A stretch of 64,000 bases of DNA from Thiocapsa rosea (GTDB taxonomy: Bacteria > Pseudomonadota > Gammaproteobacteria > Chromatiales > Chromatiaceae): contig NZ_RBXL01000002.1 of the NCBI RefSeq assembly GCF_003634315.1, positions 1-64,000 of the forward strand. The letters run 5' to 3'. A program made the position numbers and the translations under genes. Positions 10,995 to 42,343 of this stretch are shown here, in pieces (position 1 is the stretch's first letter; every line of letters starts with the position of its first letter). The notes beneath the pieces were generated by a model. That model was given only the letters and a program-made list of their open reading frames with translations, was not told the DNA's origin and made no database searches.

Positions 10995-13900
10995 AGGTGT
11001 GCTCGTTTGCGGGCGATGTCCAGACAGCGTTCCATGATTGCATCCATGTCGACAGTCTCGAGGTCTAATCCCACCGTGTCGCGCAGCTCGAAGAGATAGT
11101 CGTCAATCGCATTGCTCATCTGCTGTTGCACGTCCGCGTTATGGACCCAGTCGCGAATGCTGCGGACAGCGATCAGGTCCTCGATGCTGGTCGCCATGTC
11201 CACGGCGAGCTGGGTCCGGGTGTCGACGTCGTGCTGCGGGTAGCGCTCGAGGACCTCGCCCACCACGCCGAAGAACGCCTGGGCGGTGCGACGCCCGCGC
11301 AGCGGCGCCGGGATGGCGTCCTCCTGTCCCTGAACGATGGCCGCGTGAAAGCCCTCCATCCGCTTGAGATACTCCACCTCGTCGATCCGACCGGCCCGGT
11401 AGTCATCGATGGCCTGTTGCACCAGGTCGACAAAACGCTGATAGCGCACGGGATCTTCGTCCATCCTCTCGGTGATGGTCCGCTTGAGGCGGCTCGCGAT
11501 GGTGTCCGCTTTCGCGGCGTTGCCCTCGACCCGCTCGACCTCGGCTTGGAAGGCGTTGACGTTGAAGATATCCACCTGCTGGGTGATGACGCTCACGTCC
11601 GGCGACTGGATGTGCGCGTCCATGAGCTTGCGGATTTGCTGCTCGTAAGCGCTGTAGTCGACCTTCTCGGCGTAGCGCTGCTGCACCGAGCGGCGTAGCT
11701 GTACGAAAAACTTGAGATCCCGCTTGTACTGCGCGATGCGGTCTTCGGGGGTCTGCGCGAAGAAGATCTCACTGCCCAGCGCAACCGCGAGTGTCTTCAG
11801 GTAGGCGCGCAGAGCCGCGTAGAAGTCGGTGCGCACATCCTCGGGCCCGAGGTGGCGCTCGAGCGCTTCTTTGTCCTGCTTGTTCTTGACCTCCTTGAAG
11901 ATGCCCCAGAGGTCTGAATGGAGCTGCGGCAGTCGAGCAATCTCGGCGGCGACGTCGGTCAGCACCTCGGTCAGATCGACGTCCTTGGGATCGAACTCGG
12001 CCAGTGAGTCATAGGTGCACATCGCCTCATTGAGTTTGCCGAGCACACCGCGATAGTCGATCAGCAATCCATGCTCTTTCTCTTCGTAAAGCCGGTTGAC
12101 GCGGGCAATGGCCTGCAGCAATGAGTGCTCTTGGAGCGGCTTGTCAATGTAGAGGACGCGATTACGCGGCTCGTCGAAGCCGGTCAAGAGCCGGTCGATG
12201 ACGATCAGGAGTTCGACCCCATCGGCCCGGGAGAAGGACGCCAAGGTGTCATCGTTGTAGTGCTTCTCCGAGCCGTGGCGGTCCATCATCGCTTGCCAGA
12301 AGTCCTTGACCGCCTGGCTCTCGGCGCGCAGGTCGGGCTTGGACATGATGACCGCGCTCTCGACGACGCCGAATTCCTCGAAGAACCGCTGGTAGCGGAT
12401 CGCGCTCTCGCGCGAATCGGCGGCCAGCTGGGCCTTGAACCCGGTACCCTGGATGTTCTGGCGGTAGTGCTCGCCGATATCGTAGGCGATCATCCTCAAC
12501 CGCTGCTCGGCGCGCGAGAGTTCGCCCTCGCTCGCCATGCGCCGTTTGAGATCGGCCGCCTGAGCCTCACTCAGATTGCGCGTAACACGCTCAAACCAGC
12601 GTTGCAGGGTGTCTTCCTGTAGCTCCAGCTCGGCCACGCGCCCCTCGTAAAGTAACGGCACCACAGCCCCGTCGGCGACCGCCTCACGCATCGGATAACT
12701 GTGGATGAAGCCGCCAAAGCGCGCGGCGGTGTTTTTCTCCTTCTTGGTCAGAGGGGTGCCGGTGAAGGCTAGGTAGCAGCCATTGGGGAAGACCTGGCGC
12801 ATCAGTGCCGCCGTCTCGGCATAGTTGCTGCGGTGTCCTTCGTCGACCAGTAGGAAGGTATTGGGGTCCGGATCGCTCAGCTTGTAGCGTTTCGCGGCCG
12901 TCTCGAACTTGTCGATGACGGTCGTGATGACAGGGACCGATCCGGCCTCGATCAGCTCGGCGAGATGCTGACCGCTCTTGGCCCGCTTGGCGGTCTTACC
13001 GCAGGCCTGGAAGGTGCCCCACAACTGCTTGTCGAGATCGATACGGTCGGTCACCAGCACGATGCGCACGTTGGTCAAGGCCGGATGCAAAGCCAACGCC
13101 TTGGCCAGCATGACCATGGTCAGCGACTTGCCGCTGCCGGTGGTGTGCCAGATGACGCCACCTTGGCGCCGTCCCTCACGCAGGACGATGACCCGCCGCA
13201 GCGTCTCCTGCACCGCGAAGAACTGCTGATAGCGCGCGATCTTGCGTACGCCTGCGTCGAACAGCACGTAGCCATAGGCATAGTCCAGCAGCCGCGAAGG
13301 GCGCAACATGGCCCAGAGCACGCGGTCTTGCTCGGTCGGCATGCGCTCGCCGCCCGACCACAAGTCCTCGAAGTACGGTAGCGCTGCGCTGTAGGTGGTG
13401 ACCTCGTCCTCGCGCGGGGCAAAGAGCTTGGCGTGTGTCTCGGCGCTAAAGCGATGATTGGCGGCCGTTCGAACCGCCGCCGTGTCCTCGTCCTGCTCAC
13501 GCCAGCGCGACCAGAACTTCTCCGGGGTGCCGACGGTGCCGAACAGCACGTCATTGACCGAGGTCGCCAGGATCACCTGCACGAATTGGAACAGGTGCGG
13601 AATTTGGTCGGGCTGCTGGTAGTCGGTGAGCTGCTCGATCGCCACCTTGACCTGCGGTCTGCCGCCGGCCTGATCCTTGTCGCGACGCTTGCACTCGATG
13701 ACCACGAAGGGGATGCCGTTGACGAACAGCACCAGGTCGGGTCGCCGCGTGGTCTTCGCCCGGCTGCGCTCCACCGCGAATTCATCGGTGACATGGAAGA
13801 CATTTCGCTCCCAATGTACCCAATCGATGAATGCCAGCGAGCGTCCCTTACGCTCTCCTTGGATGGTCTCATCGAGGCTCGTGCCCAGCGTCAGGAGGTT

Positions 13901-28784: not shown

Positions 28785-29144
28785 TCACTCTCCAGTGTCA
28801 AGGTTGCTGATGTATCGCGCTAGGCGACATTTTTTGAGGAGGCTGAAGGTAATCTTCGCCTTCTCTGGAAAGGTCTGGCATGCCTGCGGTCGGCAGGCAT
28901 AAATCAGGCATTTTTTAGTTAGGTTATTTAAGAAGACACAGGCTCCGTTGCTCTGACTTTTCAATATTAAACCAACACCATCAAAAATAACAAACTCTTC
29001 CTTTACAGCATCGTATTTTTTATGAAGGAAACGACCAATTTTGCTAATATCATTTTCATTAACTGGACATACGCCAAGACTTGAGCAACAAAAATCGCAG
29101 CCTTCGCATAAATCTCCGCCAGTCACGTTAGGCTTTATTGCCAT
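28785..29144 (-). CDS. YkgJ-like cysteine cluster protein
   Basis: 119 residues. Eight conserved-type cysteines in 'CEGCDFCCSSLGVCPV' and, later, 'CLIYACRPQACQTFPE' match the YkgJ family of zinc or iron-sulfur chelating proteins. Its ATG overlaps the stop of the radical SAM gene by one base (TAATG), so the two are translated together. Companions of this kind next to radical SAM maturases may assist cluster loading or peptide handling. AT-rich like its partner. Confidence 0.85.
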   Translation of the reverse strand: MAIKPNVTGGDLCEGCDFCCSSLGVCPVNENDISKIGRFLHKKYDAVKEEFVIFDGVGLILKSQSNGACVFLNNLTKKCLIYACRPQACQTFPEKAKITFSLLKKCRLARYISNLDTGE

Positions 29145-30526
29145 TACTTAAGGTCGCGCCAAGCACAATATGTTTTCCAGCCGACCGAACAGTCTTGTTG
29201 GCTTATCGCGTCGATTAGTCCTGTGTCAGAGAAATGGTCCGCGGGGCATGGCGAACATACATCCTTCGCATCACAGCTTGCACACTTTGGATAATCGTCT
29301 ATAGTGACCTTTCGCCATCGCGCCAGACTGGAAGAGTTTTTCCATACATGTGACAAACTTTCACTTATGATGTTTCCACATGGCATACGCAATGAATTGC
29401 ATGGAAACAAGTTACCGTAAGCATCTAAAGAAAAATTTCTGAATCCGGCCTGGCAAATCATCCGTGTGCTTTTATCGACTCTACTTAAAGTTCTTATGTC
29501 GTCCCTAAGGTATGGGTTCACTCTTGCGTCCCACAGCAGGGAATCGAAATCACGAGATTGGATGCGCAATTGCTCAGGAATTCTTTCGTTGTTTTCGCTC
29601 TTTGATAGCTTGACGCTGAATTTAAGCTCTAGCCCTTTCTTTGTTGCCCAGGCATGCAACTCATCGACAGATTCTTTATTTATCCTGGTTAATGGGCACG
29701 CAATCGTCGGTCGTATCCCGAATGACTGAAGCGAATCGATAGCCTTCAATGTCTTCTGCAAGCTTCCTGGAGTGCGCGTGATGCCATCGTGGATGCCGTC
29801 ACGTAGGGAATAGACGGATATTTGGACATTTCTAGGCTTAACGTCGGCTATAAGCTTTGCTCGCTCATCGCTTAAGAGAGATCCGTTCGTGAGTATGGAA
29901 ATAATGAAGCCTCTGTCGTAAGCAAGCGAAAGGATCTCAAAGAAATCAGGATGTGCCAGGCATTCGCCACCAGTGAACTCTATATCTATAACACCAATTG
30001 CCATCATTTCTTCTAATGCTGTTCTCGCCTTATTTACCGTCCAGGCACCAAGACCCGGAGTGGCGCAGTAACAGTGAGAGCACTTCAAATTACATAAACT
30101 GGTTATTTCCCAAGTGGCCGAATACGGAATCATTCTTGAGGAAAAATAATCGATTACCTCATTCTCGTCTATGCTGCTAGTTCCTTGCCTGGATACCGCG
30201 ACTGTAGTTTCTGTCGTTTCTAATTCGCTCCATTGATTATCTCCCGCGACAATGCCAAGAGCAGCCAGTTCCAGAACGAAGTTTTCGACGTCCGATTTAA
30301 CCTCAGAAAACATTTCATCGCAATTGTAAGCCTTACATACTTCACGTGAGATATCAAAAACCTCAAGCCCTTTTTCTATGAGCCGGAATATCTCGGCGGC
30401 TGTTTCTTCAAACTTAAAGAATTGCCTGTTCTCCCGATTCACGGCAAGAATTATTTCACCAATATCGCGAAAAACATAGTCTGTCTTATTAAAGAAAAGC
30501 GGGCGTAATAAGAAATCCGTGCTCAT
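29144..30526 (-). CDS. PqqD-radical SAM-SPASM peptide maturase
   Basis: 460 residues. Residues 1-95 form a PqqD/RRE-type domain that would bind a precursor leader. 'EITSLCNLKCSHCYCATPG' holds the CxxxCxxC radical SAM cluster (Cys145, 149, 152), with 'FTGGECLAHPDFFEI' as the SAM motif. The SPASM domain supplies auxiliary-cluster cysteines in 'ICQAGF', 'FPCNSLRMPCG' and 'CASCDAKDVCSPCPADHF'. Such fused enzymes modify ribosomal peptides (RiPPs). Base composition is distinctly AT-rich against the region, a sign of transfer. A candidate substrate is encoded just upstream. Confidence 0.9.
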   Translation of the reverse strand: MSTDFLLRPLFFNKTDYVFRDIGEIILAVNRENRQFFKFEETAAEIFRLIEKGLEVFDISREVCKAYNCDEMFSEVKSDVENFVLELAALGIVAGDNQWSELETTETTVAVSRQGTSSIDENEVIDYFSSRMIPYSATWEITSLCNLKCSHCYCATPGLGAWTVNKARTALEEMMAIGVIDIEFTGGECLAHPDFFEILSLAYDRGFIISILTNGSLLSDERAKLIADVKPRNVQISVYSLRDGIHDGITRTPGSLQKTLKAIDSLQSFGIRPTIACPLTRINKESVDELHAWATKKGLELKFSVKLSKSENNERIPEQLRIQSRDFDSLLWDARVNPYLRDDIRTLSRVDKSTRMICQAGFRNFSLDAYGNLFPCNSLRMPCGNIISESLSHVWKNSSSLARWRKVTIDDYPKCASCDAKDVCSPCPADHFSDTGLIDAISQQDCSVGWKTYCAWRDLK

Positions 30527-30687: not shown

Positions 30688-30919
30688 TGCTTCCTCCTAG
30701 GTCAAAGCTGAAAACCTCAGCTTGAGTCGGCAGCGATAGCAATTCTAATATTTCAATTTATATTTCGTGGTATGGAGTGTCTGCAAGTAAAGTAGATTTC
30801 TTGCATTTTTTCTACGACGCGCCGTATATTTTTGACAATATTTTTCGAGTCTGCCTGACGGCGGTCAAGAACTCGCCCTCGCGCCCTGCCCCGAAATGTC
30901 CCCGCAAATGGGGGCAATA

Positions 30920-31195
30920 GTGGGGTATGTGGTCGAGCCTGCCTACACGACGCCCGTACTCGCTGGGTTGACGCTTACGCCTGACGGTCACCTCAAAGGG
31001 AAGCCGTAGCTCCTAGGCGACATCAGCCAGTCCATCTATGTGAGCTGCGAAACTGATCTGCGTGCCGATCTGCGACGTCTTGGAATCACGGCCGCGCTGC
31101 ACCAGGGCGAGTGGGGGCCGAGTGACGGCAGAATTGCCCGTACGGGTGCCCTTGCGGATCGTTATCGATCTTGGCGGGCAGGTTCCTCACGATAA
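30920..31195 (+). pseudogene. Degenerate plasmid-type gene fragment
   Basis: One frame with an internal TAG (31007) encodes 'VEPAYTTPVLAGLTLTPDGHLKG' and then 'ISQSIYVSCETDLRADLRRL' plus 'GITAALHQGEWGPSDGRIARTG'. The second piece matches the relic at about 22,740. No known domain. The 200 bases before it (30,720-30,919) are AT-rich at first and hold no gene I can support. Confidence 0.45.
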
Positions 31196-31313
31196 CGGTT
31201 AGCGGTCAGCGGGGTCATCATTCAACCGGTCGATCTAGAACTGTCGTCGGCATCGGGCGGCACTGGCCGTCCTGTCCGAACCCGCCCGCGCCCGTGATAG
31301 GAGCCCGCAGTGC

Positions 31314-31480
31314 GACCGCTTTGGAGCGGCAGAAGAAGGAGAAGCGCAGGCGGCGATCGAGGCGTTCAACGCCGACGCCCGGCCAGATGCGTACACGGTC
31401 GACCGTGGCGTAAAGCGCATCCTCGCAAAGGTGAGGAAAGAGAACTGCTCGGGCGGGTATCTACGACGAGGTAAGACTTC
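31314..31480 (+). pseudogene. Fragment of plasmid transfer or replication-type gene
   Basis: 'DRFGAAEEGEAQAAIEAFNA' followed by 'DARPDAYTVDRGVKRILAKV' is a coherent alpha-helical stretch of a kind seen in plasmid-encoded proteins, then the frame drifts into unlikely sequence. No start codon or ribosome site; I cannot name the family. Confidence 0.3.
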
Positions 31481-31499
31481 CGAGCATAGTCTGGGTGCT

Positions 31500-32210
31500 G
31501 TTTCACCCGATGAGCCTGTTTGGCCACGACGACTGAGCCGGACCATCCGGATGTCACTGTCGTGGCAGAGACGATCGCTTGGCTGCCCACGATGCTTGGC
31601 AACCTCGTCGCGGCGCTACCGCGCCTCTCCTAAACAACAGGGCCATAAGCCCGCATCTCTTGGCCGAAGGTGCCGTCCGCGCAGCAAACACAGATAGACC
31701 GATCGCGAAAAACGTTAGTCACGACCAAGCCGCCCTGTCTTGCGAGCCAGACCGTCCCTTTTCCTTCGCCGCTTCCGCACCATGAAGGTTCCTGCACGCG
31801 CTATCTGGGCACGATAGCGATATGCTCCTCTGCCTCGTTCAAACCCAGCCGCTCTCAGGCAGGCATCGTCGTCCCTTCAGATCGTTACTTGCAATCAGGT
31901 CGCCGGGCTAGTCCCCCGGCACGGAAGCTCAGCTCGGCAAGCGATTCGAGTTGCCGGATTCGCCCTCCGGGAAGCTTCGAGCCACGTGTTTCCAGCCAGC
32001 AGAGAGCCTTCACCCAGCCATTCTGTCGCACTCGATCCGTTCGAGGCTACCTGACTCGCCCCGGACCGCACCGACTCCAATCGGCCTACTCATGCAAGGC
32101 AAAGGCACATGGGCGGCTTCCCCAGGACTTGCGGCCCCGCCTCTCAGTTGTGTCGCCGCCGCGCGATTCCTCCAGCCATCTAACGCCTTCTAAAATTATC
32201 CGCAAACAGG
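31500..32210. other. Gene-free degraded stretch
   Basis: About 700 bases without a frame I can support on either strand. The long plus-strand frame 31670-32257 has Ser/Arg/Pro-rich shadow-like composition and no ribosome site. The stretch ends at the first GGTCGAAAAA promoter-like element. Confidence 0.5.
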
Positions 32211-32211
32211 C

Positions 32212-32249
32212 GGTCGAAAAATCCCGCGCAGCGCCGTACTACCATAGTG
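32212..32249 (+). promoter_or_regulatory. Two-box promoter element, copy 1
   Basis: GGTCGAAAAA (32212-32221), 15 bases, then TACTACCATA at 32237. First box perfect, second box diverged from TCTTTACCCATA. Lies 84 bases before the start of the acidic micro-protein gene. Confidence 0.6.
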
Positions 32250-32320: not shown

Positions 32321-32452
32321 ATGTCCGAATACTCAGAATGGACCCATCGTTACAGCCTCCCAGAAGAGGATCCTGACTACCGCAGCCTGGACGACGAAAT
32401 CAACGATCTCATCGATGAGCGTGAAAACGAAGATGACGGAGGGGACGACTGA
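32321..32452 (+). CDS. Acidic micro-protein, 43 residues
   Basis: ATG 32321 has AAGGAG 8 bases upstream. The product begins 'MSEYSEWTHRYSLPEEDPDY' and is strongly acidic after that (Asp/Glu-rich, ending G-G-D-D), with no hydrophobic helix. It is the first gene downstream of the promoter-element series. Family unknown; the charge would suit a DNA mimic or a binding partner of a basic protein, but that is speculation. Confidence 0.7.
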   Translation: MSEYSEWTHRYSLPEEDPDYRSLDDEINDLIDERENEDDGGDD

Positions 32453-32712
32453 TTCGCCGTCTGGTCGGTTAACCGAGCAAACCGGTTGCATCCTCTTCCC
32501 TTCAGCCGCGCCTGCGCGCCCGCCTGGGCGCAGGCGAACTGGCGACAACAACAGATGCCATGAAAGACCTCGCCCGACCGGAAACCCGGTGATGGTCGGC
32601 ACTTTGTCGCCCGTGACAAGGTGAAGACGCAGTAACGGCGAAGGCGCTCCAACCTTACCGATAGCCTCGAGGGCTACGCCGCCAGGCGACAGGGGTGTGT
32701 CTGACCAGGGAT

Positions 32713-32750
32713 GGTCGAGCGTACATGCTCGCTGCTGTCTTTTGATCGTT
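32713..32750 (+). promoter_or_regulatory. Two-box promoter element, copy 2
   Basis: GGTCGAGCGT (32713-32722), 15 bases, TCTTTTGATCGT (32738 on). The spacing is identical to the other copies. It argues that the membrane-protein gene starts at 32840 rather than at the ATG at 32711, which overlaps this element. Confidence 0.55.
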
Positions 32751-32839
32751 GTAGGTTAATTAAATCGATAATCATCCGCCTACAGCGTCTCTACCGACGA
32801 GCACAGGTTCTCAATCTCGTACTGTTCTGGAACTCACGT

Positions 32840-33601
32840 ATGTTCAAGCTGAAGCGTAAATATAAGGATTCATCGATCGAAGGACTTCGGACCTTCATCT
32901 TCACTCGCTTCTATCCGAGGGTCGTTGTGGGTGGCTATGTGGGCATGCATCACCTTCGTAATCTGATCAGTCCACTCGGGGTCAACACGATCCTGCTGGT
33001 CTACGTTCTCTTGCTCACCCTGCTGGTCGCGCAGGAGTTGCTGCATGGCGACCCACTGTGGCGGTCCGTGCTCCTCACATTGCTTGTCGCACATGTCGTC
33101 TACGACATGCTGGCGAATGTCGAGTTGATCTACATCGCGATGGCGCAGGAAACGCCCTCCTTCGAACTCGAAGTCGTGATGCTTTCCGACTGCATGACAT
33201 TCGATGATCGACTCCGGCGGCTGCGTGTCCGGGGGGATCCCAAGGCGTTGGCACATGCGGAGCAACAGGCCGCCGTTCTGAGGGAATGCGGTGAGCAGAG
33301 TTTGGCATGGCCGGCCGGGCTGAAGATTCGCGACAAGCGCAGCGGTCAGTGTTGGAAGTTCTACGAGCACGAGCAGAACGATTACGAAGCCCACTTGGAC
33401 CTCGGGAATCAAAAACGCATGGTGATGGACACCGACGATTTTCTCTTTATTTCCGTCATCCAAGAGTTGATCGATCGGCGTTTGTCGCCGAAAAGGCGCG
33501 ATCAGATTTGGAATCGACTCTATCGTTTGGGTCTGTACATTAAACCTTGCTCAGAGAATGCGCCGATCCTGCTTCCTGGAGAAGCGGGTGTGATCGTCTA
33601 G
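32840..33601 (+). CDS. Membrane protein of the E1/AAA cluster, unknown family
   Basis: 253 residues from ATG 32840; a frame from 32711 would begin inside the promoter element. Two closely spaced hydrophobic helices ('LGVNTILLVYVLLLTLLVAQEL' region and 'SVLLTLLVAHVVYDML', about residues 47-92) are flanked by soluble parts. The C-terminal 160 residues are cytosolic with no motif I recognise ('SGQCWKFYEHEQNDYEAHL'). The inverted repeat at 33624-33662 follows and may end its transcript. Likely the membrane anchor of the neighbouring system, by context only. Confidence 0.65.
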   Translation: MFKLKRKYKDSSIEGLRTFIFTRFYPRVVVGGYVGMHHLRNLISPLGVNTILLVYVLLLTLLVAQELLHGDPLWRSVLLTLLVAHVVYDMLANVELIYIAMAQETPSFELEVVMLSDCMTFDDRLRRLRVRGDPKALAHAEQQAAVLRECGEQSLAWPAGLKIRDKRSGQCWKFYEHEQNDYEAHLDLGNQKRMVMDTDDFLFISVIQELIDRRLSPKRRDQIWNRLYRLGLYIKPCSENAPILLPGEAGVIV

Positions 33602-33623
33602 TTACATCGGCAGTTAGATCGCA

Positions 33624-33662
33624 GTTCCATCGTAGCGAAACTGCGGAGCGGCACGATGGAAC
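33624..33662. terminator. Inverted repeat after membrane-protein gene
   Basis: GTTCCATCGT (33624-33633) and ACGATGGAAC (33653-33662) are perfect 10-base arms around 19 bases, 23 bases after the stop. No T tract, so it may be an operator for the AAA gene or a processing site rather than a terminator. Confidence 0.45.
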
Positions 33663-33770
33663 CAGCGTTCAATATGATTACCCTCCTCGAAAAGGCTATA
33701 ACATTCAAGAAGTGGCCAACCCGTAATAACCGGCCTAAGCCCACCCGTTTCTCAGGAGTTAATCCCCGCC

Positions 33771-35888
33771 ATGCTTGAAACGTTCGACGTTGGTTTCGAC
33801 GAGCATGATCATCCGTTTCAGCCGGCCTTAGCGGTCGATGAGATGGCCGTGGTTCGCTTGGCTTTGGGTCTGCTGTTCGACAGCGGCGGCATCTCCCGCT
33901 TTCTCAATGCGCTTCCACACACCCCATCAAGACCGCGACTAGGGCAATTTCTGGGTTTGCAGGAGTTGTTGGCCGACGCGGCTCAACCGGACCAAGTCCT
34001 TCGGCAATTGACGGCCCGGCGAGGCGAAGTCGGCCGCTTCGACGGCCGCTTCGGCCCACCGCTCGACGATAGCCTCCAACAGTTCGCGAGTCATGTCGGG
34101 CTTTCGACCACCGAACAGCGGTTGCTCGGGTTAGCCACTCTGCTGCATCTGCGTCCGTGTCTCGCGAAACTGGCGTCCAAAGGGTTCGGCGAGGTCGATG
34201 CCGTCGGGTTGGTGAAGATCTGTGCACCGCTCTTGAGCACCAGTGAAAAGGAAATGCGTGCAGCACTTGCGCCCACTGGGATCTTGCTCCGATCCGGGTT
34301 GATGACGATTCAGCGCGATGAGCGCAGGAAGCTGCACGAACACTACGAATTGCTCCCTGGGGTGATCGAGGCGCTTTGTACCGGTGGCGATGAAATCGGG
34401 ATCTTGCTCGCCCGTTGGGTGACACCCGCATCCGCGCCGACGCTGACACTCCGTGACTACCCGCACCTGTGCCAGCCTGTCGGGTTGGCCCGGAAAACGC
34501 TGAAAGCGTGTCTTCGTAGAAATACCATCGGGACGAACTTGTTGCTTTATGGGCCACCCGGCAGCGGCAAGACGGAGTTAGCGCGCGCCTTGGCGGCAAC
34601 CCTTGGCATGGCACTCTATGCGGTGCCCTGCGCGGACGAGCAGGGTGATCCGCTCGATGGTGCCAAGCGGTTGCGTGCCTATCGGCTTGCGCAGAACGTG
34701 CTCGCCCGACGGGAGGGCGCAATCGTGTTGTTCGATGAGGTCGAGGATGTCCTCCCCACCCGACTCAGCATCAACCTAGGCAACTCCGACCTAACCAAGG
34801 GGTGGATCAACGAATCGCTTGAAACCAACCCCCTCCCAACGATCTGGGTGTGCAACGGCCTGGCAGGATTCGACGAAGCCTATTTGCGACGCTTTACACA
34901 GGTCATCGAAGTCGGTCTGCCCCCGCTATCCGTACGCAAGCGCATGATTACCTACCGGACGCGGACCTTGTCGGTCTCCGCCGATTGGTGCGCGCGGGCG
35001 GCAGCGCACCCTGGGCTTTCGCCTGCCTTGTTGTGCCAAGCGGTACGCACGGTCGCGACGGCGGGGTATCGCCGCGTGTCCGATCGCGAAGCGGCATTGG
35101 ACACCCTGCTTAACGCCAGTTTGAACGCCATCGGCGAGGGATGCCTGCCCTCGCGTAACCCGGTCGACGCGCTCGCCTATCTGCCTGATTGCCTCAACGC
35201 CGATCAGGATCTCGATGCGCTGGTTCGGGGCCTCCAACGCGATCCGCGCGGCCGTCTGTGTCTGATCGGTCCGCCTGGAACCGGCAAGACCGCGTTCGGG
35301 GCTTACGTGGCTCGCAAGATCAAGCGACCAGTCCTATTCAAGCGAGCCTCGGATCTACTCTCCCCGTTCCTCGGCGGTTCGGAGCAGCGGATCGCGGCGA
35401 TGTTCAAGGAAGCTTCACAGTCTGGATCAGCCTTGTTGCTCGATGAAGCCGACAGTTTCCTCCGCGATCGGCGTTCCGCCCGTCAAAGCTGGGAAGTCAC
35501 GCAGGTCAACGAGTTCTTGGTTCAGCTCGAAACCTTCGACGGGCTGTTCATCGCCTCGACCAATCTATTTGAGTCATTCGACTCAGCGGCCTTGCGGCGA
35601 TTCGATCTGAAGATCCGGTTCGACTATCTCCGCCCTGAACAGGCGTGGCCGCTTTTCAAGGCGACGCTGCGCCAATCAGGCTCACGTCTGACGCAACCTG
35701 CCATCTGGCAGAACCGGCTGGCTGCGCTCGATGGCTTGACGCCAGGCACGTTCGCCACGGTGATGCGTCGTCAACGTCTGACCCAAGAGCCACTCATGCC
35801 GCAACGCCTGCTCGATGCCTTGGTCGCCGAGTTGACCGCAGTCCAGCAAGCGCTTGTCCGACCCATTGGGTTCATGGCGGATCTATAG
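33771..35888 (+). CDS. Tandem AAA+ ATPase
   Basis: 705 residues. Residues 1-240 are helical without a known domain. First AAA+ module: Walker A 'LLYGPPGSGKTELARALA' (about 258-275), Walker B 'AIVLFDEVEDVLP' (about 316-328). Second module: 'LCLIGPPGTGKTAFGAYVA' (about 497-515), 'GSALLLDEADSFLRDRRSA' (about 550-568), sensor 'IASTNLFESFD' and arginine finger in 'AALRRFDLKIRF'. The layout is that of Cdc48/ClpA-like unfoldases or remodellers, soluble. Within a ubiquitin-like/E1 cluster it would suit remodelling of tagged proteins (inference). Ribosome site CAGGAG, 12 bases before the ATG. Confidence 0.88.
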   Translation: MLETFDVGFDEHDHPFQPALAVDEMAVVRLALGLLFDSGGISRFLNALPHTPSRPRLGQFLGLQELLADAAQPDQVLRQLTARRGEVGRFDGRFGPPLDDSLQQFASHVGLSTTEQRLLGLATLLHLRPCLAKLASKGFGEVDAVGLVKICAPLLSTSEKEMRAALAPTGILLRSGLMTIQRDERRKLHEHYELLPGVIEALCTGGDEIGILLARWVTPASAPTLTLRDYPHLCQPVGLARKTLKACLRRNTIGTNLLLYGPPGSGKTELARALAATLGMALYAVPCADEQGDPLDGAKRLRAYRLAQNVLARREGAIVLFDEVEDVLPTRLSINLGNSDLTKGWINESLETNPLPTIWVCNGLAGFDEAYLRRFTQVIEVGLPPLSVRKRMITYRTRTLSVSADWCARAAAHPGLSPALLCQAVRTVATAGYRRVSDREAALDTLLNASLNAIGEGCLPSRNPVDALAYLPDCLNADQDLDALVRGLQRDPRGRLCLIGPPGTGKTAFGAYVARKIKRPVLFKRASDLLSPFLGGSEQRIAAMFKEASQSGSALLLDEADSFLRDRRSARQSWEVTQVNEFLVQLETFDGLFIASTNLFESFDSAALRRFDLKIRFDYLRPEQAWPLFKATLRQSGSRLTQPAIWQNRLAALDGLTPGTFATVMRRQRLTQEPLMPQRLLDALVAELTAVQQALVRPIGFMADL

Positions 35889-35913
35889 GCGCGTCGCCTC
35901 GTCGATAGCAGCC

Positions 35914-35950
35914 GGTCGAAAAACGGGATGCTCGCGCGTCTTTACCCATA
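35914..35950 (+). promoter_or_regulatory. Two-box promoter element, copy 3
   Basis: GGTCGAAAAA (35914-35923), 15 bases, TCTTTACCCATA (35939-35950). Both boxes are identical to copy 5. Confidence 0.7.
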
Positions 35951-36008
35951 ACAGGGTTCGCAACTGGAGTACCTGACCCAATGGCCCGGCGTTCATCGAG
36001 CGACTGCC

Positions 36009-36046
36009 AGTCGAAAAAAGGTCTTCTCCAGCGTCTTCTCTATCAA
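36009..36046 (+). promoter_or_regulatory. Two-box promoter element, copy 4
   Basis: AGTCGAAAAA (36009-36018), 15 bases, TCTTCTCTATCAA (36034 on). A weaker copy 95 bases after copy 3 and 95 before the next gene. Confidence 0.5.
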
Positions 36047-36140
36047 GGCGGTCCGCTGCATCCGCCTTGCCGTGTCGTCGATCAAGCATCTTGCAGCAGT
36101 CGACGATCACGGTGTCGCAGCATTTTACAGGAGCAATACC

Positions 36141-36377
36141 ATGATGGTTTCGACCAATCCGGATGTCCGCGCGCTCGTTCGCTGGGCACTGAAGCAATAC
36201 CCCTGGCTCTGTTTGGAACCGGGCAGCAAGCATTGGCGTCTGCGCAGTGAGCGGTCGCAAGATTTCACCCCGATTCCGGTTTCGCCATCCGAGTTCAAGG
36301 TCGTCAAGCAACTCCGCGCCCAGATCCGTCGGCTCGCGCAGCAGGGGCGAGGGCTAATCGACTCGAAGCGACGCTGA
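36141..36377 (+). CDS. Small HicA-like basic protein
   Basis: 78 residues from ATG 36141 with AGGAG 8 bases upstream. The order 'LEPGSKHWRLRSERSQDF' then 'TPIPVSPSEFKVVKQLRAQI' recalls the dsRBD-like HicA fold (a G-S-x-H loop, a strand, then a helix), but HicA identity is not certain and there is no HicB beside it. Strongly basic, so RNA or DNA binding is plausible. It has its own pair of two-box promoters. Confidence 0.6.
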   Translation: MMVSTNPDVRALVRWALKQYPWLCLEPGSKHWRLRSERSQDFTPIPVSPSEFKVVKQLRAQIRRLAQQGRGLIDSKRR

Positions 36378-36435
36378 ATAGACGAGAGAACGATATATAA
36401 GTCACTGATTATAAATCTATAAGTTAAGAAACTAC

Positions 36436-37928
36436 GGCTCTCCCGGAATTCAGGGAAAGCGCTAAAATATTTAAAAACATGACGTTGTAGTCATTTTGAC
36501 CGAACACGTTGGTTGAAAATATCGCTGGACGCACCCCGTCCAAGCCATTTTTAAGCGGTTGTTTTTCATTGATCAGCGCGCGAAAACCCGATAACCGCAC
36601 AGATCGAGGTACACCCTCTGGTAGAGCCGGCGCAGGTTGCTCAAGCCATAGCACCGCCGTTTTAATACTTTGATCTTGTTGTTGAGACCTTCGACGAAAC
36701 CGCTCGTGTGTCGTTCGGTAAAATAATTGGTGATCTCGTCCCAATGACGGCGCAACGTTTTCAGGAAGGATTGAAAACACGTCATCTCGGCGTTCTTGAC
36801 CCGTCGCATCCAGCCACTGAGTTTGCGCTTGGCCTGACCTTTGGACAGGGGCATGTCGTAGACCTCGGTGAGGGCTTGGCTGAGGGCATGGGCTTGCGCG
36901 AGTTGCGGGGAATAGGCGAACAACCGGGCGCGGATCCGCCGTTCCTCGGCGCTCAAGTCGGATTCGCGCTTGCGCAGGATCCAATGGACGTTCTTGAGCC
37001 CGCCGTACTCGGTTTTCGACAGGTCGCGCTTGAGCCGGCGCAGTTCTGTCTTGCGCAACGTCTCCACGGCGTCGCGATACAAACGCGCAACATGGAAGCG
37101 ATCGGCGCAGATGGCGACGTGCGTGCCGAAGACGGCCTTGGCCGCACCGATGAAGCCGCTGTACAGGTCGGTGCACACGACGCGAACGGTGCGCCGCAAG
37201 GATTTCGGGATCGTGCGCAAAAACGCCTCGACGGTCGCGCGCTTACGGTCCTTGAGCACGGCGAGGATGCTCAGGGTGTCCTCGACCCTGGCGCTGACGA
37301 TCACCACGAAATTGCCGTGGCCTTTGGTCAAGGCGATCTCGTCGAGCCCGAGCACGGGGAGCGCCGGGAGCGTCGTCCAATCGATTGTGCTCGGGACCTC
37401 GCGATCGAGGATGCCTTCGAGGTGTTCCGGGGTGACGGCGTCCTTGTGAGCGACGTCTTCGAGGGTGCTGTTGATCAAGGCGCGCAGCAGGCTGTGTTCG
37501 AAGGCACGGGTGAAGGCGCTGCGCGGGTCATACCAGTCCACTCGTTGGGTGGTGGTGGGATGATCCTGGCAATCGGGGCAGCGATACCGTTTGGGCCGAA
37601 TGACGATTTCAGTGCGATGCTCGAAGATCGACAGATGGCGCAACCGCCGTTCTTCACCGAGTCCATGCGGCTCGGTGATGTATCGGCCGCAGCTCCGGCA
37701 CTGCGTGCCCTCCTCGGTGCTGTGCACATGAATTTCCAGCACAGCGGCGTCCGTGATCTCGACGCGGTCGATGGCGATCTGCGGCAGTCCGAGCAGGCGC
37801 AGGAGTTGGCTCTGGTCAATCATCGGTTTTCCATTGAGTTAAAAGCGTTCGAATGGAAGTTTACCAAGATTGGCTGCGTAGAACACTGATTTTACTAAAC
37901 TTGGCGTTCCCTGAGATCCGGGAGAGCC
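36436..37928 (-). mobile_element. ISL3-family insertion sequence, complete
   Basis: 1493 bases with imperfect inverted ends GGCTCTCCCGGAATTCAGGG / CCCTGAGATCCGGGAGAGCC. The 8-base target duplication GAAACTAC is perfect (36428-36435 and 37929-37936), so insertion is recent. It landed between the HicA-like gene and the promoter of the NYN gene. Confidence 0.95.
36573..37823 (-). CDS. ISL3 family transposase
   Basis: 416 residues, usual length. N-terminal zinc-binding 'CRSCGRYI' and 'RYRCPDCQ', then the DDE domain: 'LPVLGLDEIALTKGHGNFV', 'VRVVCTDLYSGFIGAAKAVF', and 'SGFVEGLNNKIKVLKRRCYG' with the Glu. Intact. Confidence 0.95.
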   Translation of the reverse strand: MIDQSQLLRLLGLPQIAIDRVEITDAAVLEIHVHSTEEGTQCRSCGRYITEPHGLGEERRLRHLSIFEHRTEIVIRPKRYRCPDCQDHPTTTQRVDWYDPRSAFTRAFEHSLLRALINSTLEDVAHKDAVTPEHLEGILDREVPSTIDWTTLPALPVLGLDEIALTKGHGNFVVIVSARVEDTLSILAVLKDRKRATVEAFLRTIPKSLRRTVRVVCTDLYSGFIGAAKAVFGTHVAICADRFHVARLYRDAVETLRKTELRRLKRDLSKTEYGGLKNVHWILRKRESDLSAEERRIRARLFAYSPQLAQAHALSQALTEVYDMPLSKGQAKRKLSGWMRRVKNAEMTCFQSFLKTLRRHWDEITNYFTERHTSGFVEGLNNKIKVLKRRCYGLSNLRRLYQRVYLDLCGYRVFAR

Positions 37929-37946
37929 GAAACTACACATAGGAGG

Positions 37947-37975
37947 CCGCTGCCGCCGTTTTTTAGCGGCAGCGG
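37947..37975. repeat. Hairpin overlapping promoter element 5
   Basis: CCGCTGCCG, 11-base loop containing T6, CGGCAGCGG. Its right arm runs into the first base of GGTCGAAAAA. It could be the original terminator of the HicA-like transcript or a regulatory structure at the NYN promoter. Confidence 0.45.
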
Positions 37976-38010
37976 TCGAAAAATCGAGCGTTCCTGAGTC
38001 TTTACCCATA
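37974..38010 (+). promoter_or_regulatory. Two-box promoter element, copy 5
   Basis: GGTCGAAAAA (37974-37983), 15 bases, TCTTTACCCATA (37999-38010), 42 bases before the NYN gene start. Identical boxes and spacing to copy 3. Confidence 0.7.
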
Positions 38011-38051
38011 TCGCCAAGTCTTTTTTAACCATTCGTCATGAGGAATTATCC

Positions 38052-38579
38052 GTGATCAAGAAGATCCTTGCCATTGATCTGACCCCCTGCGAGATCGTCG
38101 CACGAGACCTAGGTCAGCAATATTTTCCGGTCCAATCGGTCCGCAACCTCGTCGCTGGTGAAGGCGTCGATCTCATCGAGACCCTGGTGACCTTGGTCGA
38201 GCGGGTCGCCGAGGACAACCCGGAGTCGATCGCAACGAACAAGGTGAACTTCACCCGCAAGAAACACGCATTGGAGGACGCGGGAGCACGCGTGGTCCGG
38301 GCGCCTGCCAAGCGCTTGACCGATGGGGGATTCAAGCAGTCCGACGACCAACGCTTGGTGATCACGACCCTGTCGCTGGCGCTGCGGCTGCGGCCGGACT
38401 TCCTGGTACTCGCGGCAGCAGACGGCGACTTCGCGCCCATGGTGTGGGAGCTGCGCAACGAGGGGATTCGCACCGAGGTCCTGGCGCGTCCCCAGATGCT
38501 CGCGAGCGATCTGCGCCGGGCCGCCTATTCCGTGATCGATCTCGATACCGTTCTTAAGCAGGTTGGAGGAAACCGCTGA
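38052..38579 (+). CDS. NYN (LabA-like PIN) domain protein
   Basis: 175 residues from GTG 38052 with GAGGAA upstream. 'KQSDDQRLVITTLSLALRLRPDFLVLAAADGDFAPMVWELRNEGIRTEVLA' is the NYN core, with acidic residues Asp (DDQ) and the D-G-D pair expected to bind metal. The N-terminal 'AIDLTPCEIV' strand offers the first Asp. Known relatives are RNases or nucleic-acid-binding PIN-like proteins. Its TGA overlaps the next ATG (TGATG), coupling it to the ubiquitin-like gene. Confidence 0.85.
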   Translation: MIKKILAIDLTPCEIVARDLGQQYFPVQSVRNLVAGEGVDLIETLVTLVERVAEDNPESIATNKVNFTRKKHALEDAGARVVRAPAKRLTDGGFKQSDDQRLVITTLSLALRLRPDFLVLAAADGDFAPMVWELRNEGIRTEVLARPQMLASDLRRAAYSVIDLDTVLKQVGGNR

Positions 38580-38917
38580 TGGGTCTGAACGGCGACAAGC
38601 TGGGTTTTGTTCGGGCGACCGGCTACGGGCGGATTCGCAGCGACGAGTTGGCCGCGCTCTTGGAGCTTGCCCCCAACGAGGCCGTGTATCGATCGGGTGT
38701 CGACAATGGGGTGCGTTCGGGACAGGTCGTGAAGGATGCGGAGGTCGAGATGAAACCGGGAGACACCTTTTCCGCCGGACCGCGCGTCGTCAAGGGCAGC
38801 CAGCCCGTCCCCGCGGCGCTTCGCGATGAGCTCGACGGCTTGCGCCGCTCCGGGTTCGGAGGAGTCGGCGACCCGGAGCCGAGTCCCGAAGGATGGGGCT
38901 GCGCCTGCGGGGACTGA
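38579..38917 (+). CDS. Ubiquitin-like (multi-ubiquitin type) small protein
   Basis: 112 residues. The stretch 'LAALLELAPNEAVYRSGVDN' to 'EVEMKPGDTFSAGPRVVKGS' follows the strand-helix-strand order of bacterial Multi_ubiq/beta-grasp proteins ('elaLk.GdtF...PrV'). Position directly before an E1-like gene strengthens the idea. The tail after the fold is Gly-rich and ends 'GWGCACGD' rather than Gly-Gly, so conjugation through its C-terminus is uncertain. Overlaps the NYN gene by one base. Confidence 0.6.
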   Translation: MGLNGDKLGFVRATGYGRIRSDELAALLELAPNEAVYRSGVDNGVRSGQVVKDAEVEMKPGDTFSAGPRVVKGSQPVPAALRDELDGLRRSGFGGVGDPEPSPEGWGCACGD

Positions 38918-38945
38918 CCTTGCCGGGCGGAGTTCTGCGGAACGG

Positions 38946-39709
38946 ATGTGCGTCGGTATCGTCGGAGTCGGAGGTTTGGGCATGCTGGCGACGGAGCAAT
39001 TGGCGCGCGCAGGCTTTCGCCGCTTCGTGCTCGTTGATCCCGACACCATCGAAGCCACCAACCTCAATAGGTTGCCTGGTGTCACCCATCGCGACCTCGG
39101 GATGCTCAAGGTCCAAATCGGAAAGCGGATGATCCGCACCATCGCTTCAAGCCTGGGCTGCACCGCGGAAGTTTCGGCTTACCCCCTCGACGTCTATCAG
39201 TCTGTCGAGGCCCAACGCACCTTGTCGCGATGCGATCTGATCCTCGCGTTAACCGACAATGAGCTGAGCTGGACCATGGCCCTGCAGCTGGCAATGGATT
39301 CAGGCCGGGAATATCTGCAAGCCGGAACCGATATCGCGCTCGGAGCTGACGGTTCGATTGTCGGTCTACGCGCGGAGGTGACCGGCGCGGAGATCGGCCG
39401 CTTTTGCCCGCTCTGCAGCGGTCGACTCGCGCATACGCAGGAGGGGATGTCACAGCACAAGCCGTCAACGCCGGCTACTTGCCTGATGTAGCCGCGCCCG
39501 CTGTGATGGGTTTGAATGCGGCCGCCTCAGGGATGCTCGCTACCTAGATTCAGAGGCGAGCTGCTGGCATCGGAGTACGCGACCTTGTGCAGGTCGATCT
39601 CCAATCCGGCCAGACGTATCTACGGGATCGGATAGTGATTGATCTCAACTGCGAGATCTGTGGATCCGAATGCTCTAGTCAAGAGAATTTTGCACCAAGT
39701 GTCTATTGA
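38946..39709 (+). pseudogene. E1-like (ThiF family) enzyme with two lesions
   Basis: Rossmann adenylation core: 'VGIVGVGGLGMLATEQLARA', 'VLVDPDTIEATNLNRLPG', Lys in 'MLKVQIGKR', 'CDLILALTDN'. Zn pair 1 is 'CPLC'. At about 39,440 a G-run shift takes the protein out of frame: the other frame reads 'DVTAQAVNAGYLPD', then 'APAVMGLNAAASGMLAT', hits TAG (39545), and reads on 'RAAGIGVRDLVQVDLQSG' to Zn pair 2 'CEICGSEC', ending at 39709. The uninterrupted product stops at 39491. E1 enzymes adenylate a ubiquitin-like C-terminus. Two lesions point to a pseudogene unless the read has errors. ATG 38946 is the conservative start. Confidence 0.75.
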
Positions 39710-39734
39710 CACCGGATACGGGATGTTTCAGAAT
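39706..39734 (+). promoter_or_regulatory. Sigma70-like promoter
   Basis: TTGACA (39706-39711), 17 bases, CAGAAT (39729-39734), 85 bases before the sigma-like gene, which does not carry a two-box element itself. Confidence 0.5.
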
Positions 39735-39818
39735 CCAGCTTAGCCATTTGGAATTCAAGGATGGCTAGATCTTTAACAAATCGGCGAGGGCAGGCAGTTA
39801 CTTAAGAGGTAACTGTCC

Positions 39819-40466
39819 ATGGGATATTTTGGTGAAGTCAAGAGATTCGCTAAGAATGTTGCCAGAAAACAAGGCTTCTCGGCAGCAGCTAACGAGGATT
39901 TCTATCAGGATGTTTTCGAAAGGGTTTGGAAATTCCGGCATGCATCGATCGTAAACGGCTCAGTTCATTACGGGTATGTCGAAGACATCATCACCACCGT
40001 AATCGCAGAGCAAAGGAAAGCGTACCTAAAAAACACGAATTACTTGAAGTGTCAAGAGTACGCGGAGAAGAAGCGGCTGAAAGGTACTGCCGAGGAACAG
40101 CCGAAACCCCACGATTTGGAAGTGCCTCTTCCACATATGGACGTACTGGATAACCATTACGGAGGACAATGGGTTAACCCGATGGTGTTGGGTGGCGAAA
40201 TGGATTTTCTGGGGTACGAGCAAGATCCAGTCGACGAGATTCAAGCAGAGCAGCTGCTCTTGCATTGTAAAACGGTCCGCATCTCAAAGAGTGAGAGCAA
40301 GGGAGGAGGGATTCGGGAGTCCGTCCGGGAGCTTTTGTTAAGTGGCATGACCGATGGACAAGATATCGCGGCAGAACTCCATCTTGAACAGAAACCTGTG
40401 TCGCAAGCAAAGTCTTATGTTATCAAAATGATGAGAGAAGAATTAGAAGCGTTACTTAATCGATAA
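39819..40466 (+). CDS. Sigma-factor-like protein, diverged ECF type
   Basis: 215 residues. 'FAKNVARKQGFSAAANEDFYQDVFERVWKFR' resembles sigma region 2 (the '..aeDl.Qdvf.r.wr' helix). The C-terminal 'SVRELLLSGMTDGQDIAAEL' with 'HLEQKPVSQAKSYVIKMMRE' resembles the region-4 HTH ('..diA..L.....V...k.......L'). The middle is longer than in most ECF factors and unusual. AT-richer than its neighbours. If correct, it is the natural candidate to read the five two-box elements upstream. It could instead be another HTH protein. Confidence 0.5.
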   Translation: MGYFGEVKRFAKNVARKQGFSAAANEDFYQDVFERVWKFRHASIVNGSVHYGYVEDIITTVIAEQRKAYLKNTNYLKCQEYAEKKRLKGTAEEQPKPHDLEVPLPHMDVLDNHYGGQWVNPMVLGGEMDFLGYEQDPVDEIQAEQLLLHCKTVRISKSESKGGGIRESVRELLLSGMTDGQDIAAELHLEQKPVSQAKSYVIKMMREELEALLNR

Positions 40467-41036
40467 AACTCGATATAACAAAATTATCAAAAATTTAAAA
40501 ATTAAATTAGTATCTTAGCGTAAGTTTATTGTTCCATTTCCTGCCTGCTCTCGCCGATTCCCCTCAGCGCAGGGCACTACTCTCAAGCCAGCAATCTGCT
40601 GATTCCTGCAGAACACGTCAGGATGTTTTGTTTTTGTCGTCCGGCCGGGGCTTGAGCGGCTGCTGGCCGTGATCACCTCGGTGTCCTCGGCAGAGGACCG
40701 CATCCCTTCTCAAAAAAGAATCGTTGATGGTATCGCGGCGCAGGGCTCCTCCACTCGCAAAGTGACGGGGTCCGTCTAGGTTCCAATCTCAATGTGACCA
40801 GCTACAATACACACGAGTCCGGCCCTATTCGACCTTAAGAGCCTTCGTTTCCTCGACGTCGTTATCGGAATCGTAGGCCATCGCTCTCGCTGATTTTTCT
40901 GGCGCGCATGAAAGGTCTTCAACGGCGCCTAACCCGGCTGCGAAAAGACCACGGCGGTACTCGTGATCCCGTTGCTCTATCCAGGTCAGGACGAACATAA
41001 TTGTCTATTTGCGGAATCGCTCCCAAGCGACTTCCT
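40467..41036. other. Intergenic, no gene supported
   Basis: AT-rich just after the sigma-like gene, then mixed composition. Short minus-strand frames (e.g. 40515-40703, 40919-41182) lack ribosome sites and known motifs. Confidence 0.5.
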
Positions 41037-41407: not shown

Positions 41408-42343
41408 CTAAAGCCTAGAGACAACATCCGCCATGCGCTCTTCGCCGACGTGCGTGTAGATCTGGGTGGTCGAGATGCTCACATGGCCCAGCAGGGCCTG
41501 GATATCGACCAACTGAGCCCCCGACTCGAGGAGCCGGGTTGCATAGGTATGCCTCAACTTGTGGGGTGTGACCCGCTTGTCGATCTCGGCACGCTCGACT
41601 AAGCGCCGCAGATACAGGCGCACCGCCACCGGGCTGGGTGGACCCTCGCCGACAGCCTTCGCGAAGACATGAGCATCCTTCGGCAGATCCGCGATCCACT
41701 CCCCGAAGATCGTCCCGAAGGCCTCGGGCAAGGGAACCACCCGCTCCTTGTCCCCTTTGCCGACCACGCGGACCGACTTCGCCAAGCGGTTGATCATACG
41801 AACATCTTTGACCTTGAGCCCCAGCGCCTCTGAGATCCGCAAACCCGACTGCTGGATCAACGAGAACAACATGCCGTGACGTCGCCGCGCATCGAGAATC
41901 CGTTGACGGGCGTTCCCGTGAAGGTTGTCGGGTAAGTTCTCGATGTCGGCGGCGACCGCCTGGAGGCGCGCCTGCTCGTCCCGATCGAGCCAGATCGGCA
42001 GACGTTGCGGGCGTTTAGGCTTGTCGGTCAGATAGATGGGATCGTTGGAGACCATCGCGCGCTTCTTCGCCCACTTGTAGAAGGACGACAGACACGACAC
42101 GCGCCGGGCGATGATGTGCGGCTTGGCCTTCCTCTCGCGGGCCTGCCAGCCAATCCACTGCTCGACCTGGACGTGGCTGCAATCGCGCCAGTCGCGTTTC
42201 AGCTCGTCGAGCCAGTCACCCCACAGCTTCAGATCCGACGCATAGCCTGCGCAGGTTCCTGCGGCGGCCCCGCGCGTGTAACGCAGGTCGTCGAGGAAGT
42301 CCTTGCGTGCGGTCCAGTAGTCAGTCGTGTCCACGTTGTCCAA
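41408..42343 (-). CDS. Tyrosine recombinase, XerC/D-like integrase
   Basis: 311 residues. SAM-like DNA-binding domain (1-110), then the catalytic set: Arg in 'SGLRISEALGLKVKDV', 'GKGDKERVVPLP', His-x-x-Arg-His in 'TPHKLRHTYATRLLESGA', His in 'LLGHVSISTTQIYTHV' with the nucleophilic Tyr. Complete. It could integrate or resolve the element; no att site is obvious beside it. An 'AGTGCTATT' box just upstream resembles the operator halves at 43424-43467, suggesting control by one of the XRE proteins. Confidence 0.93.
   Translation of the reverse strand: MDNVDTTDYWTARKDFLDDLRYTRGAAAGTCAGYASDLKLWGDWLDELKRDWRDCSHVQVEQWIGWQARERKAKPHIIARRVSCLSSFYKWAKKRAMVSNDPIYLTDKPKRPQRLPIWLDRDEQARLQAVAADIENLPDNLHGNARQRILDARRRHGMLFSLIQQSGLRISEALGLKVKDVRMINRLAKSVRVVGKGDKERVVPLPEAFGTIFGEWIADLPKDAHVFAKAVGEGPPSPVAVRLYLRRLVERAEIDKRVTPHKLRHTYATRLLESGAQLVDIQALLGHVSISTTQIYTHVGEERMADVVSRL

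Follow-up and report, generated by a model that had tools for sequence, protein, structure and literature searches.

The E1/E2/JAB logic of protein conjugation is used in immunity by the Cap2/Cap3 operons of CBASS (cyclic oligonucleotide-based antiphage signalling system) and by Bil operons. Closer to the locus described here are the type 6e operons of Iyer et al. 2006, which encode JAB-E1 and ubiquitin-like (Ubl)-E2/RWD proteins (PMC1779556), and the Bub operons, for which the authors state that phage protection has not been demonstrated (PMC13373217). Our locus lies in the first 64,000 nucleotides (the window) of Thiocapsa rosea contig NZ_RBXL01000002.1, on a 221-kb replicon (contig C2), a plasmid, in a genome of 6.1 Mb with a chromosome of 5.89 Mb. 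A preliminary description of this DNA had listed open reading frames (ORFs) running in one direction, all of which were present on one strand, and had seen in them a possible new system. The conserved gene set held, but the description had missed that the copy is broken, that E2 and JAB parts are deleted, that an ISL3 element is inserted, and that Bub and type 6e operons are the closest described relatives. We consider it likely that a conserved module has decayed at this locus, one in which a Bub/type-6e-like Ubl cassette is combined with a NYN protein, a Cdc48-like AAA+ ATPase, basic and acidic proteins and, in this sub-variant, an extracytoplasmic function (ECF)-like sigma factor and its promoter.

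Reference genomes were scanned with a NYN profile, and matches were found in Halochromatium roseum, Lamprobacter modestohalophilus, Thiorhodococcus mannitoliphagus, two Methylococcaceae metagenome-assembled genomes and Methylotuvimicrobium buryatense. In the first five, the NYN gene was followed by genes for a 208–232-residue Ubl+E2 protein and a JAB-E1 of about 445–490 residues. Among 210 genomes of the window's family (the family sample used throughout), seven had the NYN gene, and NYN/Ubl-E2/JAB-E1 were present in six (G001, G437, G438, G484, G545 and G548). On three cyanobacterial plasmids NYN came first, then a small protein that is coiled-coil-like in one plasmid or more, a ThiS-like Ubl, Prok-E2_E and E1, all as separate genes; querying plasmids with the Ubl-E2 fusion independently recovered the same three. 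The Ubl fragment gave no match in plasmid records, and the NYN profile gave 122 pattern matches and no confirmed relative among viral contigs.

The G548 locus (L072) contained an intact set lacking, of the window genes, only the membrane protein, in the order three two-box elements (see below), basic, two-box, NYN, Ubl-E2, JAB-E1, sigma-like, two-box, acidic, AAA, a 141-residue ORF and a second AAA. Joint conservation of the neighbours, which gene-neighbourhood searches had been proposed to check, was seen in G548 and, for NYN, Ubl-E2 and JAB-E1, in purple sulfur bacteria, methanotrophs and cyanobacteria. Overlap with the NYN genomes was three of five for the closest AAA subfamily (P 2e-4), four of five for the basic gene (P 2e-6) and two of two for the sigma gene (P 1e-3) by hypergeometric tests, which ignore shared ancestry and chromosomal distance.

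Several variants of the operon were also seen. A paralogous NYN2-UblE2 subfamily, accompanied by a JAB-E1 of its own, was present in G479; Lamprobacter had it too, there in tandem with the main operon (L056 7480–8861; L093 14591–17431). In methanotrophs the operon goes on to encode a Sel1-repeat protein and another long protein; M. buryatense had a damaged NYN and a homolog of the latter, with no recognisable Ubl-E2 or E1 match (L058 11649–15520; L059; L054).

Lesions were mapped by translated comparison with intact relatives. The ORF at 38579–38917, described earlier as a complete 112-residue Ubl, does contain a Ubl, but with a severed E2 start attached: its residues 1–106 match the first half of the intact 206–208-residue Ubl-E2 fusion (78% to G484). 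The Ubl-E2 frame is intact to 38896, another frame occupies 38899–38934 (LRLRGLTLPGGV), and E1 residue 183 is read from 38928. The E2 lacks its last ~86 residues, the cysteine among them, and the JAB domain, which makes up the first ~182 residues of the E1 protein, is lost as well; the deletion measured about 830–840 bp by DNA comparison. What follows is in one frame to 39440 and in another from 39428 to 39676, with an in-frame TAG at 39545; the E1 sequence reported before is there (E 1e-22), but not an intact ThiF/E1-like enzyme. NYN, AAA, basic and sigma-like proteins were free of such lesions, and the acidic gene was also open. As judged from these alignments, the region is probably what remains of a conserved module after decay; with the E2 catalytic half and JAB deleted and the E1 frame-broken, its conjugation branch cannot operate in the way proposed for intact relatives. 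One reduced and one complete copy were found in G001, indicating that such decay recurs.

The two-box element noticed in the preliminary description is real and beyond chance. As a pattern (GTCGAAAAA-N11..17-GTCTT) it matched the whole genome three times (35915, 36010 and 37975), always with a spacing of 14, and the control gave 0; a diverged copy starts at 32213. The exact pattern had eight matches in the family genomes, three in the window, two at the G548 locus and three lone ones elsewhere. G548 elements stood at the same genes as in the window, an exact copy at L072 13255 taking the place of the diverged window copy at the acidic gene. Loci without the sigma gene (L055–L057) had no two-box element. 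The sigma-like gene was found in two family genomes (the window's and G548), both with NYN, and its protein had no match in plasmid records. It matched TIGR02937 (sigma70-ECF) at E 9e-5 and 22.2 bits, under the cut-off of 42.9, and the G548 homolog (about 36–38% identical) matched Sig70_bacteroi1 at E 4e-6, likewise under cut-off. The sigma-like protein is probably what recognises the two-box element, since the two are found together in no more than two genomes and all nine copies keep the 14-bp spacing.

A conserved boxA-like leader (TCTTTAACAAATCGGCGAG) precedes the sigma-like gene, and a 19-nt inverted repeat encloses the whole ORF; the L072 counterparts lie at about 12205–12235 and 13000. 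Its RNA folded better than 20 shuffles (z -4.7), resembling rRNA leader/trailer pairing. A copied rRNA leader was rejected as the source, no second genome site being found at two or fewer mismatches, and a mobile repeat was rejected for the gene, which is single-copy in the genome.

Enzyme features are retained in the intact relatives. JAMM residues (HxH...S..D) were kept in all six aligned JAB-E1 proteins, with a Prok-JAB match of E 1.6e-8 in L093, and the E1 core kept its glycine-rich and D-x-D...NLNR motifs. The best Protein Data Bank (PDB) match of JAB-E1 was Citrobacter BubCD (E 4e-18; 1e-17 for another intact relative). A cysteine in W(Y/F)C with a downstream tryptophan was present in 9/9 aligned NYN-linked E2 domains, and this cysteine was not seen in the E2 of the Bradyrhizobium multiubiquitin operon or in BubB (aligned BubB stretch, WSRH). 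An AlphaFold model of the Halochromatium Ubl-E2 (L055; mean predicted local distance difference test, pLDDT, 81) contained an E2 fold, best matched by BubB (Z 11.7, root mean square deviation (rmsd) 2.8, 119 residues), with the Tsg101 UEV tied at Z 11.5. The Ubl ends in VVKG ahead of the E2, and the stand-alone cyanobacterial Ubls stop at IVKG or just past it, suggesting a JAB processing site.

The AAA+ ATPase was 72% identical to a G006 protein, 57% to one in G479, 55–56% to two copies in G548 and 54% to one in G438; a sequence search of the PDB gave nothing at 1e-20. Its closest subfamily occurred in five family genomes, three of them with the main NYN subfamily and the fourth (G479) with the paralogous NYN2-UblE2-JAB-E1 operon ~4 kb from the AAA gene. 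The basic gene was also found in five, four of these with NYN. Its homologs in G548 (65% identity) and G484 (60%) lie just upstream of NYN, and that in G437 (71%) just downstream of an AAA gene. The 78-residue basic protein had been called HicA-like; no Pfam or NCBIfam match was found for it, the HicA family included. In the window this gene is separated from NYN by the ISL3 element, with inverted ends and flanking copies of the 8-bp duplication GAAACTAC. Substitutions in the NYN, AAA and basic genes were concentrated at third codon positions. The G548 acidic homolog (L072 13352–13510, MSDLSEWTHDYS...LDDEINDMID) gave an alignment score of 94, versus 72 for the best of 5000 shuffles. The membrane protein showed two hydrophobic peaks in its hydropathy profile; by comparison with the G006 homolog (58% identical, adjoining the AAA gene), ATG 32840 is probably its real start. 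The G006 pair (L024 8027–13016) adjoins a CRISPR array.

CRISPR and related genes were found near several intact operons. Cas1/Cas2/Cas10/Cmr genes or arrays lay beside the operon in the three cyanobacteria, Cas1 and an array near that of G484, and a Cas1 fragment with a CARF-PDDEXK nuclease in Halochromatium. These neighbours (Cas1, Cas10, CARF nuclease), with the STAND-like repeat protein of other relatives, would fit a defence setting. The CARF-PDDEXK-type nuclease gene of Halochromatium roseum (L055 5203–6885) has the Ubl operon on one side and the AAA gene on the other. G548 also has another basic gene, accompanied by an acidic-like fragment, about 20 kb from its second acidic+AAA+AAA2 copy (L094/L095, C1 3506000–3543900).

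Table 1. Features of the module in the window
Feature	Position	Strand	Remarks
Diverged two-box element, GTCGAAAAA-N14-GTACT	32213..32240	+	Upstream of acidic microprotein gene
Acidic microprotein, 43 aa	32321..32452	+	18 D/E, 3 K/R; homolog in G548
Two-helix membrane protein	32840..33601	+	Listed ORF 32711; start inferred from homolog
Tandem AAA+ ATPase, 705 aa	33771..35888	+	Pfam AAA, two stretches, E 3e-38
Two-box element	35915..35942	+	Pattern scan
Two-box element	36010..36037	+	Pattern scan
Basic protein, 78 aa	36141..36377	+	Homologs in G548, G484, G437
ISL3-family insertion	36428..37936	.	8-bp target duplication GAAACTAC at each end
ISL3 transposase gene	36573-37823	-	Within ISL3 insertion
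Two-box element	37975..38002	+	Precedes NYN, 3' of insertion
NYN-domain protein (predicted RNase), 175 aa, intact	38052..38579	+	E 2.5e-13
Ubl-E2 fusion gene remnant	38579..38934	+	One frame (Ubl, start of E2) up to 38896, another after it; E2 catalytic half gone
JAB-E1 gene remnant	38928..39676	+	ThiF/E1 match E 1e-22; JAB gone; two frames; TAG 39545
Conserved boxA-like leader TCTTTAACAAATCGGCGAGGGCAGGCAG	39770..39797	+	3' part is left arm of inverted repeat
ECF-sigma-like protein, 215 aa	39819..40466	+	TIGR02937 match under cut-off
Right arm of inverted repeat around sigma-like gene	40541..40559	+	

Just left of the module, the minus strand encodes a radical SAM/SPASM-like and CxxCxxCC protein pair (window 28785–30526), followed by ~1.5 kb (30700–32200) without a convincing intact gene, possibly decayed. 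To the right, a tyrosine-recombinase-like gene (41408–42343, minus strand) is possibly tied to mobility of the module. Plasmid records were searched for the nearby DNA, and none was found.

For intact relatives we propose the following way of working. On a stress or invasion signal the sigma factor would rise, and it would switch on the acidic, basic and NYN genes via two-box promoters. The JAB domain would trim and recycle the Ubl at the conserved ...VVKG before E2, E1 would adenylate the Ubl, and the E2 cysteine would hand it to targets, perhaps NYN, AAA or invader proteins. AAA would then remodel tagged complexes and NYN would cut RNA. A stress- or invasion-triggered response would be a fitting role for tagging, an RNase and an unfoldase that share one switch, and tagging may be coupled to RNA cleavage. 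Only tentatively can the whole be seen as an undescribed self-regulated immune system, in which an ECF sigma factor and its promoter drive cysteine-type Ubl-E2/JAB-E1 tagging that controls the NYN RNase and Cdc48-like AAA+, often as a type III CRISPR accessory arm.

Several observations weigh against the reading as one conserved module. The complete set was found in two genomes only, the sigma gene is rare, and AAA relatives beyond the closest subfamily are common without NYN, Ubl or E1. Strand and helix order predicted for the Ubl (pLDDT 81) was compatible with a beta-grasp, and the fold search gave no clear PDB match: TNF-like jelly rolls (to Z 6.1) were uninformative, and 9d59 (Z 4.9, rmsd 2.8 over 61 residues, against the single Ubl domain here) stood among unrelated rows. 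Cyanobacterial Ubl counterparts weakly matched the ThiS-like PF14453 (E 6e-4 and 0.0075), and profile comparison between purple-bacterial and cyanobacterial Ubls was weak, covering a C-terminal stretch only. A mobile AAA(-membrane protein) defence gene and a NYN-Ubl-E2-E1 operon, both drawn to defence islands and CRISPR loci, might instead be merely adjacent. This would explain the AAA and membrane protein pair of G006, which has no NYN, Ubl or E1 nearby, the plasmid AAA relatives that accompany WYL, DUF2779, RtcB or BREX genes, and the second G548 acidic+AAA+AAA2 copy, which adjoins type III-D Cas10/Cas7/Csx19 about 180 kb from the NYN operon. Yet a NYN-UblE2 operon lay within about 10 kb in four of the five closest-AAA-subfamily genomes, and acidic and basic genes shared the promoter-like element of NYN in two genomes, so that we hold mere adjacency to be unlikely.

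That the module serves type III CRISPR as an accessory, and is not a system in its own right, is possible, if somewhat doubtful. The cas genes, arrays and CARF nuclease beside the operons, and the type III-D genes by the second G548 AAA copy, speak for this; on the other hand, the window showed no array in a simple repeat scan and nothing that matched the Cas proteins used as queries, and what lies downstream in methanotroph loci and in G545/G001 is instead a Sel1-repeat or STAND-like protein. Least probable, and in our judgement improbable outright, is that the window copy is a reduced working system of free Ubl and E1 core, or that sequencing errors account for the frameshift and stop in E1. 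In its favour, the Ubl head and E1 remnant still have their substitutions concentrated at third codon positions, and the second G001 copy is similarly reduced (Ubl about 74 residues, partial E1). Nevertheless, the E2 cysteine half and JAB have gone with the ~840-bp deletion, which joins E2 to E1 out of frame, and the frame changes at 38896, 38928–38934 and 39428–39440 and the stop at 39545 are independent. If the module does act in the proposed way, a single set of bacterial genes, equipped with a sigma factor of its own, would link Ubl tagging, RNA cleavage and an unfoldase, and such tagging would be tied to CRISPR neighbourhoods from purple bacteria to cyanobacteria. The intact loci (G548, Halochromatium roseum, Lamprobacter and Thiorhodococcus) make it testable what bacterial ubiquitin-like systems tag, and why.

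With Citrobacter BubB/BubCD and its multi-ubiquitin (PDB 9ea4, 9eae and 9d59), the module shares a JAB-E1 fusion, an E2-fold partner and a ubiquitin-like modifier, but it has one Ubl fused to E2, a conserved E2 cysteine, NYN as first gene and an ECF-like sigma factor. The CapW/CapH-CapP/CapK-CapS regulators reported for Bub (PMC13373217) were not among the module neighbours seen. Type 6e operons likewise have JAB at the E1 N-terminus and a Ubl with a C-terminal E2/RWD-like domain, or in a separate gene before E1; however, their E2-like domain is described as cysteine-less (PMC1779556), whereas that of the module has the cysteine. NYN, AAA and sigma partners are unmentioned in the texts consulted on type 6e (PMC1779556) and Bub operons (PMC13373217), and acidic and basic partners are unmentioned for type 6e. 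In full-text literature on NYN with ubiquitin-like or E1-like operons, only the 2006 paper was found (PMC1779556), the primary Bub papers lying outside the searchable text. Compared with CBASS and Bil, the module has E2 fused to Ubl and JAB fused to E1, and no nucleotidyltransferase (CD-NTase) match was found among its proteins with Pfam and PADLOC, the wider flanks not being scanned. Its ATPase resembles IetA-type and Cdc48-like ATPases in the AAA modules, but has tandem AAA and its own N-terminal region, and scored far under the IetA-type and CDC48 cut-offs. On this comparison, the module is a NYN-linked, new form of the Bub/type-6e Ubl conjugation systems, new relative to the searchable literature, and its role is probably defence, often near type III CRISPR.

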